DNA from: Treponema sp.
GTDB lineage: Bacteria > Spirochaetota > Spirochaetia > Treponematales > Breznakiellaceae
DNA: 41,336 nt
Assembly (NCBI GenBank): GCA_031279815.1
Contig: JAITHW010000179.1
Span: 1 to 41,336 of the forward strand
Direction: 5' to 3'
Below, piece after piece: positions 422 through 41,336 of this stretch (positions are counted from its first letter, which is position 1; every line of letters begins with the position of its first letter). A program made the position numbers and the translations under genes. Under the pieces are notes generated by a model. That model worked only from the letters and a program-made list of their open reading frames with translations. It did not search any database and was not told the DNA's origin.

Positions 422-2729
<2,308 letters not shown>

Positions 2730-4184
2730 ATGGCGGAATGGGATTATGAGTTATTTTGGAATGAAACACTGAATCAAATGCGGGAAGAATTGGGAGAAGA
2801 TGAATTTGGCCGCTGGTTCAAGCTGGTTGGCTATTTGAGGGCTACGGAGCAGGATATCACCTTAGGGGTTCCTTCGGGTTTTTACCGGGATCAAGTAAAA
2901 ACCCGCTATCAAACCCGGATTGAAGCCGCCTTAAAACTCGTTGTAGGGCGGGATATCGCCCTGCTGTTTGAGGTGGTGTCCCAAAGCCAGCGGGCTGCCG
3001 CCCTGCCGAAGGCCTCCGGAATGCTTAGGCCGGATGCTGCTCCGCCGCAGTCAAGCGCCGCGGAAAGGAAACCGGAAACGCAAACACCGCAGCCGAACCT
3101 ATTTTCCTCAGATACCGCACGGGAAGTCAAAGCCAAAAAGGGCCGCCACCTCCTATTGCGGGAGGATTACACCTTTGACAAGTACGTCATCGGGGATAAC
3201 AACAACTTTGCCGCCAATGCGGCCATGGCAATCAGCCGAAATCCCGGGGTCATTTATAATCCCTTTCTCATATACGGCGGGGTTGGACTGGGAAAAACCC
3301 ATCTTATGCAAGCCATAGGCAACTATGTTCATCATAATTCGGAACGTAAGATAATTTATATTACTGCGGAAAGTTTTATGAACGAATTTATTCAGGCCAT
3401 CAGGGAAAACCGGACGTCCGCCTTTAAAAACAAGTACCGTTTTGTGGATATGCTCTTAATTGACGATATTCATTTTTTGGAAGGTAAATTGGAGACCCAG
3501 GAAGAACTCTTCCATACTTTTAACGCCCTGTATGATGCGAACAAACATATTATCTTCACCTGCGACCGGCCCGCTTCAGAGCTAAAAAAGGTCAGCGAGC
3601 GGCTCCGTTCCCGATTTGAGCGAGGACTCAACGTAGATCTCCAGCCGCCCAATTATGAGACCCGCTACGCCATTCTGAAAGCTAAAACTCAAGACCGGAA
3701 AGTCGCTATCTCCGATGAGGTACTTGCCTTGATAGCTAAGAATATCAATACCAATGTGCGGGACCTTGAGGCGGCTTTGACCAAACTCTCCGCTTACGCG
3801 GACCTCTTAGGAAAGCCCATAACCCTGGAGAGCGCCCGACAGCAGCTTAAAGACGTATTTGCCGCTCCGGTAAAACAGATCTCCGCTTCCATATCTATAG
3901 AAACGATCCTGCATGTGGTGGCGAATTATTTTTCTATTTCCCTGAACGACCTGAAAAGCAACAAACGGACCCAAAAAATTGTCCAGCCTCGACAGATTAC
4001 CATGTATATCGCCCGGGAGATTACCGAATTTTCCACCACCGAAATCGGGCAGCAGTTTGGAGGCAGACATTACACTACGGTGATGCACGCCCGTGAAAAA
4101 ATCGAAAACCAGTGCCGTTCCGATCCTACTCTTGAAGCCACCATACAAACCATTATAGGACTGATTAAGGGATCCGCGAATTGA
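2730..4184 (+). CDS. dnaA: Chromosomal replication initiator DnaA
   Basis: DnaA is the AAA+ protein that binds and melts the chromosomal origin. The 484-aa protein shows domain I (about 1-85), a low-complexity Pro/Gln/Glu linker (about 95-145), Walker A GGVGLGKTHLMQAIG near residue 183, Walker B LLIDDIHFLEGK near 240, and the C-terminal helix-turn-helix domain. The DNA-binding signature reads GGRHYTTVMHA (444-454) instead of the common GGRDHTTVLHA, so two residues known to read DnaA-box bases in E. coli (Asp and His) are His447 and Tyr448 here. An AGGGAG lies about 15 nt before the ATG, which is far for a Shine-Dalgarno. The next gene is on the opposite strand, so the common dnaA-dnaN pair is absent. 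Confidence 0.97.
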   Translation: MAEWDYELFWNETLNQMREELGEDEFGRWFKLVGYLRATEQDITLGVPSGFYRDQVKTRYQTRIEAALKLVVGRDIALLFEVVSQSQRAAALPKASGMLRPDAAPPQSSAAERKPETQTPQPNLFSSDTAREVKAKKGRHLLLREDYTFDKYVIGDNNNFAANAAMAISRNPGVIYNPFLIYGGVGLGKTHLMQAIGNYVHHNSERKIIYITAESFMNEFIQAIRENRTSAFKNKYRFVDMLLIDDIHFLEGKLETQEELFHTFNALYDANKHIIFTCDRPASELKKVSERLRSRFERGLNVDLQPPNYETRYAILKAKTQDRKVAISDEVLALIAKNINTNVRDLEAALTKLSAYADLLGKPITLESARQQLKDVFAAPVKQISASISIETILHVVANYFSISLNDLKSNKRTQKIVQPRQITMYIAREITEFSTTEIGQQFGGRHYTTVMHAREKIENQCRSDPTLEATIQTIIGLIKGSAN

Positions 4185-40079: not shown

Positions 40080-40147
40080 GCAAACTGAGAACAGGCGGCC
40101 CTGTTCTTGTTATTCCGGCGCAGCCGCCTCGCCGGACATCGGCCCCC

Positions 40148-40864
40148 TTAGCGATCTATCAATTCAGGTTTTGTGGCGATCCGGTCCAACTGCGCTTCCA
40201 TCAATTTCAAAGCGCCCATAGACTTAAAATCAGGGTATCGGGATGCTTCACGCTCAATAATGGCGGCAACCTTTTCTGCGGCATCGGTTTTCTTGTATAT
40301 GATGAGGACCCAAAAGGTATCGTCGCCGGTTTTTACCCGCTTCATCGGGATAGACTCGTTCAAAAGAGCGGCGGTCAACAGCTCTTCGATATGTTCCGCA
40401 AACTTCGTCCCGGGGATACCTCTTGCCCCGGCATAATTGATGATCATAGTATGTACATTGGCATTTAACTGGACCGTCAAAGACTGCCTGGCTCTCTGTT
40501 CAGCGGCAGCCAAAGATTTAGTAACCGAATTGGTTTTTGCACCGCCGATTCCGAATACCTCCTCTTCCTGTAGGGGCGGATTACGGACGAAAGCCGGTAC
40601 ATCGGCGTTTGTGTTTTGATCCGGAGGTTTAGAAGAAGCCGAAACGCAACTGCTTATCAGAACCATAATAAATACTACTAAAACTATAGGAATACATTTT
40701 TTTGTTACCGGTCCTATAACGGAAATTCCGGCGCAGGAATCGAATGGTAAGGGAAAATCTTTAAGCCGTCGCCTGTATATACCTAAATTATATGGGGGGG
40801 GGGGGGGGGGTACTAAATTATATGATTCGCTCAAAAAACTTTGCGCCGACGCTTGAATATCCAT
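40148..40864 (-). CDS. LPP20-like envelope protein with in-frame poly-C tract
   Basis: A 238-aa reading frame begins at an ATG with GGAG nine nt upstream. Twenty codons later it runs through 17 consecutive C residues (six prolines). A hydrophobic lipoprotein-like segment, IPIVLVVFIMVLISSC, appears only after that, with a lipobox Cys near residue 73. Downstream is an LPP20-type domain (VFGIGGAKTNSVTKSLAAAEQRARQSLTVQLNANV). Between the tract and the hydrophobic segment there is no ATG, GTG or TTG in frame, so translation must enter from upstream of the tract and depends on its length. A lipid anchor 70 residues from the start is unusual. An ATG at 40879 is an alternative start. A strong promoter lies further upstream. 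Confidence 0.75.
   Translation of the reverse strand: MDIQASAQSFLSESYNLVPPPPPPYNLGIYRRRLKDFPLPFDSCAGISVIGPVTKKCIPIVLVVFIMVLISSCVSASSKPPDQNTNADVPAFVRNPPLQEEEVFGIGGAKTNSVTKSLAAAEQRARQSLTVQLNANVHTMIINYAGARGIPGTKFAEHIEELLTAALLNESIPMKRVKTGDDTFWVLIIYKKTDAAEKVAAIIEREASRYPDFKSMGALKLMEAQLDRIATKPELIDR
40794..40810 (+). repeat. G17 homopolymer (C17 in the coding strand)
   Basis: Seventeen consecutive G residues in the plus strand, within the LPP20-like gene. They are flanked by near-identical AT-rich words, CTAAATTATAT on the left and CTAAATTATATG on the right. Tracts of this length are prone to slipped-strand mispairing. Confidence 0.95.
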
Positions 40865-40875
40865 ACGATACTTCT

Positions 40876-40923
40876 CCATTTAGTATTATGAATACCTATC
40901 CATTAGTATTTATGAATAATAAT
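40876..40923. repeat. Two tandem imperfect 24-bp AT-rich repeats
   Basis: Starting at 40876 and 40900, two 24-bp units share the pattern CCATT(T)AGTATT(T)ATGAATA. They cover the predicted leader and part of the -10 region of the LPP20-like gene. Confidence 0.6.
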
Positions 40924-40947
40924 AAAAACGCTTTATTTTTTTGTCAA
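40919..40947 (-). promoter_or_regulatory. Strong candidate promoter of the LPP20-like gene
   Basis: On the minus strand, a perfect TTGACA (40942-40947) and TATTAT (40919-40924) are separated by 17 nt. The start point near 40912 would give a leader of about 47 nt before the ATG at 40864. Confidence 0.7.
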
Positions 40948-41009
40948 GCCGGATTATCATATTCGCTTATGAAACGGTAAAAAAATTATGCGTTAATCCT
41001 GTTTATTCC

Positions 41010-41039
41010 TTGACGAAAGCTGCGGACCTATAATATACT
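41010..41039 (+). promoter_or_regulatory. Candidate promoter of tRNA-Val
   Basis: TTGACG (41010-41015) and TATACT (41034-41039) are 18 nt apart, placing the start near 41046, about 20 nt before the tRNA. Confidence 0.6.
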
Positions 41040-41066
41040 ATCATAAATAAGGCATAAAATTGTCAA

Positions 41067-41140
41067 GGGCGCTTGGCTCAGCTGGTTAGAGCGCCACGTT
41101 TACACCGTGGATGTCAGAGGTTCGAATCCTCTAGCGCCCA
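41067..41140 (+). tRNA. tRNA-Val (anticodon UAC)
   Basis: A 74-nt cloverleaf: acceptor GGGCGCT/AGCGCCC with discriminator A, D arm with GCTCAGCTGGTTAGAGC, anticodon stem CCACG/CGTGG around TTTACAC (anticodon TAC, reading GUA and GUN codons for valine), and T arm AGAGG-TTCGAAT-CCTCT. CCA is not encoded, so it must be added after 3' trimming. Confidence 0.97.
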
Positions 41141-41159
41141 AACACAGGATGCCGGTTTC

Positions 41160-41336
41160 TAAATAGTACGTAATGCCTAAAAACTAAAAACCTAGCCCAA
41201 AGTACACTGGTTACTGCGAGGCAGCCAAGTGAAACACAAAGGACTAGGCATGAGTACAAGAAAAGACCTTTTTAGGACTTCCAGTCAAGAGTACCGGAAG
41301 GCGGGGAAAAAAGAGCGCGGGGTAATCCTTGACCGG
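41160..41336 (+). mobile_element. Left end of an insertion sequence (truncated by window)
   Basis: The region from shortly after tRNA-Val to the right edge holds a transposase start and AT-rich leader typical of an insertion sequence end. The exact left terminus and its inverted repeat cannot be set because the right end lies outside the window. Confidence 0.55.
41250..41336 (+). CDS. Transposase / integrase-core protein, N-terminal fragment
   Basis: Twenty-nine codons are present before the window ends. The protein begins MSTRKDLFRTSSQEYRKAGK and goes on with KERGVILDR. The pattern EYRKAxKKExxxILDR is common at the start of integrase-core transposases, where a helix-turn-helix with VTGxNRKYA follows; that part is outside the window. 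AAAGGA lies about eight nt before the ATG. The gene is cut only by the window edge; nothing shows it is broken. Confidence 0.65.
   Translation, partial: MSTRKDLFRTSSQEYRKAGKKERGVILDR

Follow-up and report, generated by a model that had tools for sequence, protein, structure and literature searches.

The switching of genes by homopolymeric tracts is well known, chiefly from work on pathogens exposed to immune systems. Campylobacter and Neisseria carry many contingency loci per genome, in which the ORF for a surface protein has a long G/C run close to its 5' end and the reading frame shifts when the run slips by one base (PMC8355987, PMC5084427). The poly-G tracts of the T. pallidum tpr genes and tp0126, of ~7-11 G, lie within promoters and act on transcription (PMC7864442). 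In H. pylori, a variable G-repeat in the tlpB mRNA leader is read by the sRNA RepG with a graded effect (PMC8295292), and in Listeria a frameshift in a short A-tract near the start of inlA causes reversible loss of the surface protein (PMC2831843). On phase variation in termite treponemes, we found no report in the open-access literature searched.

Here we analyze a window of 41,336 nt, the whole of contig C97 from a draft treponemal genome (2.8 Mb in 258 contigs, 80% complete). MAGs named Treponema sp. encode a GyrB with 87% identity to the one in the window, and the organism is very probably a termite-gut treponeme, a clade with its own family, Breznakiellaceae. The gyrB and dnaA genes lie close together in opposite orientation (422-4184), and the window may begin near the replication origin. 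A preliminary description had proposed that a C17 tract in an envelope-protein gene near the other end acts as a translational phase switch, and had pointed to treponemal precedent. The poly-G effect in T. pallidum is, however, largely transcriptional (PMC7864442).

Layout of the lipoprotein locus and a proposed switch

On the minus strand, the ORF 40879-40148 is open with 17 C residues and encodes 243 amino acids. The sigma-70-type promoter reported upstream of the tract, TTGACA-N17-TATTAT, is present at 40947-40919; it matches 11 of 12 consensus bases, scores best of the region in a consensus scan, and sits ~110-140 nt ahead of the tract. A copy of the leader on contig C72 of the same genome keeps this promoter as TTGACA-N17-TACTAT, with the same hexamers and 17-nt spacer. 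Two in-frame ATGs precede the tract, the first at 40879 and the second, preceded by GGAG (40877-40874) as had been described, at 40864-40862. This second ATG is the probable start codon: it, and not ATG 40879, is conserved in the leaders of C72 and of a paralog on contig C258 (ATGGATATTNNAGCG). The 54-nt pre-tract leader (MDIQASAQSFLSESYNLV, 40864-40811) is common to these three copies, with identities to the window of 88% over 34 nt in C258 and 73% over 117 nt in C72. We rejected C72 as a G-tract paralog (its leader is followed by G11 at a GC-rich contig end that resembles assembly junk) and use it as evidence for leader and promoter only.

The tract itself occupies 40810-40794 (G17 on the plus strand) and reads PPPPPP in the open frame. 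Its length is far beyond chance for the window, where ~4e-4 runs of at least 17 G or C are expected under a first-order model and the second-longest G/C run is 8. The tract is followed by a 91-nt post-tract leader in the lipoprotein frame (40793-40703), delimited by protein alignment A1 and a DNA alignment, which ends in ACA (40705-40703) at the position of the homologs' ATG start. Translation then gives a lipoprotein signal peptide (KKCIPIVLVVFIMVLISS, 40702-40646) with lipobox cysteine C78, and the mature LPP20-related lipoprotein with its stop codon occupies 40648-40148, its homologs having been found by genome search. Among tract lengths of 16, 17, and 18, the lipoprotein frame joins the upstream ATG at 17 only. 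Moreover, sequence and translation contain no in-frame ATG, GTG, or TTG between the tract and the signal peptide. On both points, the preliminary description had read the locus correctly.

The window protein is a predicted lipoprotein: KKCIPIVLVVFIMVLISSC carries the positive residues, hydrophobic stretch, and lipobox cysteine of bacterial lipoproteins and is followed by a body of 165 residues ending at 40148, and in a 10-sequence family alignment both K60 and the cysteine C78 are invariant. The proposed LPP20-like domain is borne out for the relatives rather than for the window protein, which gives no match to Pfam LPP20 (PF02169) at E<=1 or at 0.1; PF02169 matches 8 of the 10 alignment members, with a best E of 2.9e-11. 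Judged by its sequence, the lipoprotein body belongs to a treponemal lipoprotein family whose members mostly match LPP20. Queried with the window protein or with the family alignment, Pfam and PDB gave nothing informative other than LPP20 in the homologs, and a scan of the genome contigs with the window lipoprotein as query matched no relative.

Several further features surround the locus. A 12-bp direct repeat (CATATAATTTAG, minus strand; 40783-40794 and 40813-40824) flanks the C17 tract and is absent from the C258 paralog. A tRNA-Val gene lies nearby at 41067-41140, and an Rfam search of 40100-41336 returned nothing beyond it. The contig end adjoining this tRNA (41173-41336) has 87-98% matches to 10 or more further sites in the genome, several of them at contig ends, and probably represents an end of a multicopy insertion sequence.

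We consider it likely that the poly-C tract is a translational on/off switch of a surface lipoprotein at this locus. Transcription would start at the TTGACA promoter, and ribosomes would initiate at the leader ATG 40864 and translate the C tract as proline. Because CCC encodes proline in all three frames, the tract itself would be translatable in every frame, and only the frame after it would vary with its length. Slipped-strand mispairing would alter this length and thereby shift the frame of the leader fused to the lipoprotein. At 17 residues (also at 14 or 20), the gene would be ON, with reading running into the signal peptide and yielding an N-terminally extended pre-protein; any other length, such as 16 or 18, would turn it OFF, with translation stopping soon after the tract. 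Slippage within the population, translation through polyproline, and export of the extended precursor are the parts of this proposal that we infer from the DNA. Lipoprotein signals are not usually preceded by an extension of ~55 residues, which counts against reading the tract as a switch.

Tract length could instead act on transcription, by setting promoter spacing or start-site strength as in the T. pallidum poly-G loci or meningococcal porA and opc. A TATAAT motif stands immediately 3' of the C17 tract, and in T. pallidum tp0126 the tract lies between the -35 and -10 elements, and a wrongly extended ORF had taken in the signal peptide (PMC7864442), which cautions against relying on long ORFs that run through tracts. 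At our locus, however, a strong promoter lies upstream of the tract, a transcript begun after the tract would have no in-frame start codon ahead of the signal peptide, and the TATAAT is replaced in homologs by TATATT, TATTTT, TATTGA, or GTTCTG. Because of the missing start codon and the unconserved TATAAT, we regard a transcriptional effect as very improbable.

Homologs and the history of the tract

The C258 paralog is 75-80% identical to the window and carries C18 at the homologous place, with flanks on both sides. It has one stop in the leader (ATG GAT ATT AAA GCG CCG GCA TAA) and another in the body, and is a pseudogene. A second paralog in the same genome, on contig C176, is 43% identical and tract-free, and has its own SD and ATG (start MKKICLVL). 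At the gene start, the alignment shows ACA in the window, ATA in C258, and ATG in both C176 and an ortholog of the same genus in genome G005. This ortholog carries C19 at 138 nt upstream of an intact SD and ATG, and three loci of genus g10 are similar: L154 has C19 and L155 has C17, at 174 and 199 nt upstream of intact start codons, and L206 has C20, an intact start codon, and a leader that is open in the gene frame.

In the tract-bearing paralogs and orthologs, the position is kept and the tract measures C17-C20 (C19 in G005, C19 in G064, C17 in G118, and C20 in G014), and other LPP20-type paralogs are tract-free. Across the six homologs, the tract lengths are 17, 18, 19, 19, 17, and 20, in different loci or species rather than strains, and four of the six keep their own SD and ATG downstream of the tract. 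Among 28 loci from the best family-wide matches, a C tract lies within 400 nt upstream in L154 and L155 only, and one further locus has G12 upstream. When 28 proteins are placed on a tree, those with a tract, six in all, form one group requiring a single change (support only 68/53), and none of 500 label shuffles reached so low a change count; the window, C258, and G005 group with support 100/100. Based on these layouts and on the tree, we take the tract to be a property of one lipoprotein lineage, whose ancestral gene probably had a start codon of its own, preceded by a tract-bearing leader.

This history suggests how the window could have come to its present layout. In the ancestor, the leader would have been an upstream leader ORF and the gene would have had its own ATG; in the window lineage, that ATG would have been lost (to ATA or ACA), and because of this loss, expression of the gene would now be tied to the tract. 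Since both the window and C258 copies lack the ATG, the simplest history places its loss before their split, after which the body would have stayed under purifying selection while being read from the leader. Comparing the two copies, the body shows a dN of 0.099 and a dS of 0.32 (ratio 0.31), and the post-tract leader, with few sites and a small sample, a dN/dS of ~1.8. In each copy the post-tract leader stays open in the gene frame, and the two leaders differ by two indels, of 3 and 9 nt. By these measures, the body is under purifying selection and the leader is not constrained as a protein. The sequence, the frame, the homologs and their differences in tract length, and the selection on the body are the observations on which the switch proposal draws.

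The same comparisons bear on another reading of the window copy, as a decaying duplicate in which the open leader is a matter of luck and the tract survives from a switch that operates elsewhere. ACA or ATA replaces the ATG, the C258 paralog is dead with two stops, and shuffled leaders are open by chance in ~17% of cases for the window and 21% for C258, so that the openness of the window leader taken alone is weak evidence. This chance of an open leader, the leader's lack of protein constraint, and the dead C258 copy all count against the switch reading as well. The window ORF is nevertheless intact over its 243 codons, as are the promoter, SD, and leader ATG, and the body dN/dS of 0.31 has accrued since the split of two ATG-less copies, such that selection seems to have gone on without the ATG. 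We find decay an unlikely explanation.

The homologs also raise the idea that the tract acts on the leader ORF, with one phase reading the leader to near the gene start and other phases stopping early, thereby coupling translation or preventing early transcription termination in a phase-dependent manner; this would be the ancestral mode of the homologs. The leaders of G005, L154, and L155 are not open in the gene frame, and each has one frame that stays open past the tract (for 41, 45, and 56 codons, respectively) to end 10-45 nt before the lipoprotein ATG; in G005, the leader stop overlaps the SD (TAAGGA). Each of these open runs is only moderately unlikely (P 0.10-0.15), and such single-leader tests are weak in general (P 0.10-0.70) and were never used alone. 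While homologs probably still use leader coupling, the window has no separate start codon to couple to, and for the window itself we think this mechanism quite unlikely.

Overall, the phase switch claimed in the preliminary description is supported in part. A frame that opens at 17 only, a gene without a start of its own, homologs of differing tract length, and an architecture that recurs in the family with an excess of open frames past the tract all speak for it. On the other side, the tract lies in a fused leader, and because four of the six tract-bearing homologs start separately downstream, what is conserved is not a pure frame switch of the gene.

Poly-C tracts and shared leaders across the family

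Of 120 genomes sampled from the same family, 107 have C/G tracts of at least 13 nt; the typical number per genome is 5-30 and the highest 250. Outside the family, such tracts were seen in only 35 of 147 genomes of the phylum, most of which have one or two. Two closed, single-contig genomes, G043 and G033, contain 14 and 6 tracts at a threshold of at least 12 nt, so the tracts are not a mere artifact of draft assembly. For the window tract in particular, a sequencing or assembly artifact such as two-color-chemistry poly-G would be suggested by contig-end runs elsewhere that look artificial, including C75 and C19-G-C26-G-C18. The window tract is, however, internal to its contig, and homologous tracts occur at five further loci (C258 and one in each of four other genomes); with such tracts also in closed genomes of the family, the artifact reading is largely refuted and we give it almost no credence.

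Contigs frequently break at tracts. At contig ends, poly-C runs that are very long or interrupted (L060, C75; L051, C19-G-C26-G-C18; L091; L109) look like sequencing or assembly artifacts, and the contig-end runs C220 C75, the C170 triple run, and G001:C53 were excluded as likely artifacts.

To relate tracts to genes, we sampled 105 tracts from at least nine genomes. For 34 of these, an ATG-initiated ORF of at least 150 codons spans the tract in some phase, with the tract no more than 60 codons from the start in 25 cases. Of the 34 ORFs, 21 are out of phase at the assembled length. Such a mix is as expected from a population of on and off switches, and some of the off-phase calls could be assembly errors. 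The layout proposed for the window, with a start codon, poly-C, and a lipoprotein signal but no other good start, also occurs at L096 (MKTLKKARQNREDSGLSVT-PPPPPP-IRLLRYKGLLFGAVLVAILLGVSC), L228 (MQTALDKKMGSTVSFT-PPPPP-VRFGLKLSFLIALIAALAFAGC), L245, L250, and L289. Across 15 testable loci, the segment from tract to lipoprotein is open in the gene frame in seven, versus 1.28 expected from dinucleotide shuffles (Poisson-binomial P ~1e-5). Some of these (L080, L119, L137, L147, L276) also have their own SD and ATG. The loci came from tract searches and were not picked for openness, and they form a convenience sample in which some share ancestry.

Further tracts were noted at other genes, two of them in the window's own genome. 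At L058 (G000:C215, ~887-1170), C20 lies seven codons past the ATG of a sugar-ABC-type permease (MKKAFTH-PPPP..) that is out of frame as assembled and in frame at 21, with its ORF breaking again 80 codons downstream. At L062 (G000:C226, ~1495), an exported protein of 450 aa (MKKLLAVFVVLAAVCSGAFAEITWGGGG..) has an in-frame G14 just past its signal peptide. In several genomes of the family, G tracts lie in or just past the signal peptides of substrate-binding-type lipoproteins (L079, L088, L094, L145, L146).

Some tract-bearing leaders recur ahead of different genes. Of the 14 tract loci in the closed genome G043, eight have leader sequence in common (for instance NSLYYNEL-PPPP-IGLLGYNSP), in 10 pairs, nine of which precede unrelated proteins, and G055 and G120 likewise share leaders without related proteins. 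Loci with poly-C in leaders common to unrelated genes include L374-L393 in G043 and G033, L222-L232 in G055, and L131-L273 in G120. A tentative reading, which we hold as possible rather than probable, is that the family carries dispersed 5' leader cassettes, each with a promoter or start codon, a short leader peptide, and a poly-C tract, that are common to unrelated genes and provide lipoproteins and other exported proteins with start codons in a phase-variable way. Within-genome blastn detected no leader similarity in G001, G005, G031, G056, or G072, so by this test the idea is not general. In the window's own genome, the C170 triple run aside, the sole tract-bearing pair with a shared leader is the window and C258, which are paralogs; the window, C258, and C72 leaders may form one cassette family.

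Relation to described switches

Homopolymer phase variation is already known; the leader-borne poly-C architecture and its family-wide scale appear to be new. The single locus would be an ordinary type of switch in an unusual place, and for the specialist the family-wide repertoire is the surprising part: a family of gut-symbiont-like spirochaetes in which long C/G tracts can number in the hundreds in one genome and frequently stand immediately ahead of exported proteins. This repertoire suggests strong selection for surface variation in the insect gut, where phage, protists, and competitors would act. If tract leaders do pass between genes, a genome could place many unrelated genes under one type of random switch.

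With the contingency loci of Campylobacter and Neisseria (PMC8355987, PMC5084427), the lipoprotein locus shares a surface-protein ORF that has a long G/C run close to its 5' end, a frame moved by one-base slippage (predicted here), and many loci per genome. Unlike in those loci, the tract here encodes polyproline and precedes the signal peptide; it sits in a leader ORF that homologs keep apart from the gene. With the T. pallidum poly-G tracts (PMC7864442), the window shares a spirochaete host and a homopolymer of variable length ahead of outer-envelope genes, but its C17 tract lies in a leader that we read as translated, with a strong promoter upstream. The H. pylori tlpB leader resembles the window in placing a variable homopolymer in an mRNA leader, and differs in that the graded reading of its G-repeat by RepG is unlike the frame switch proposed here (PMC8295292). 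Finally, Listeria inlA, like the window, has a homopolymer near the start, in that case a 5' poly(A); its short tract sits in native coding sequence and involves neither a leader fusion nor a family-wide repertoire (PMC2831843).
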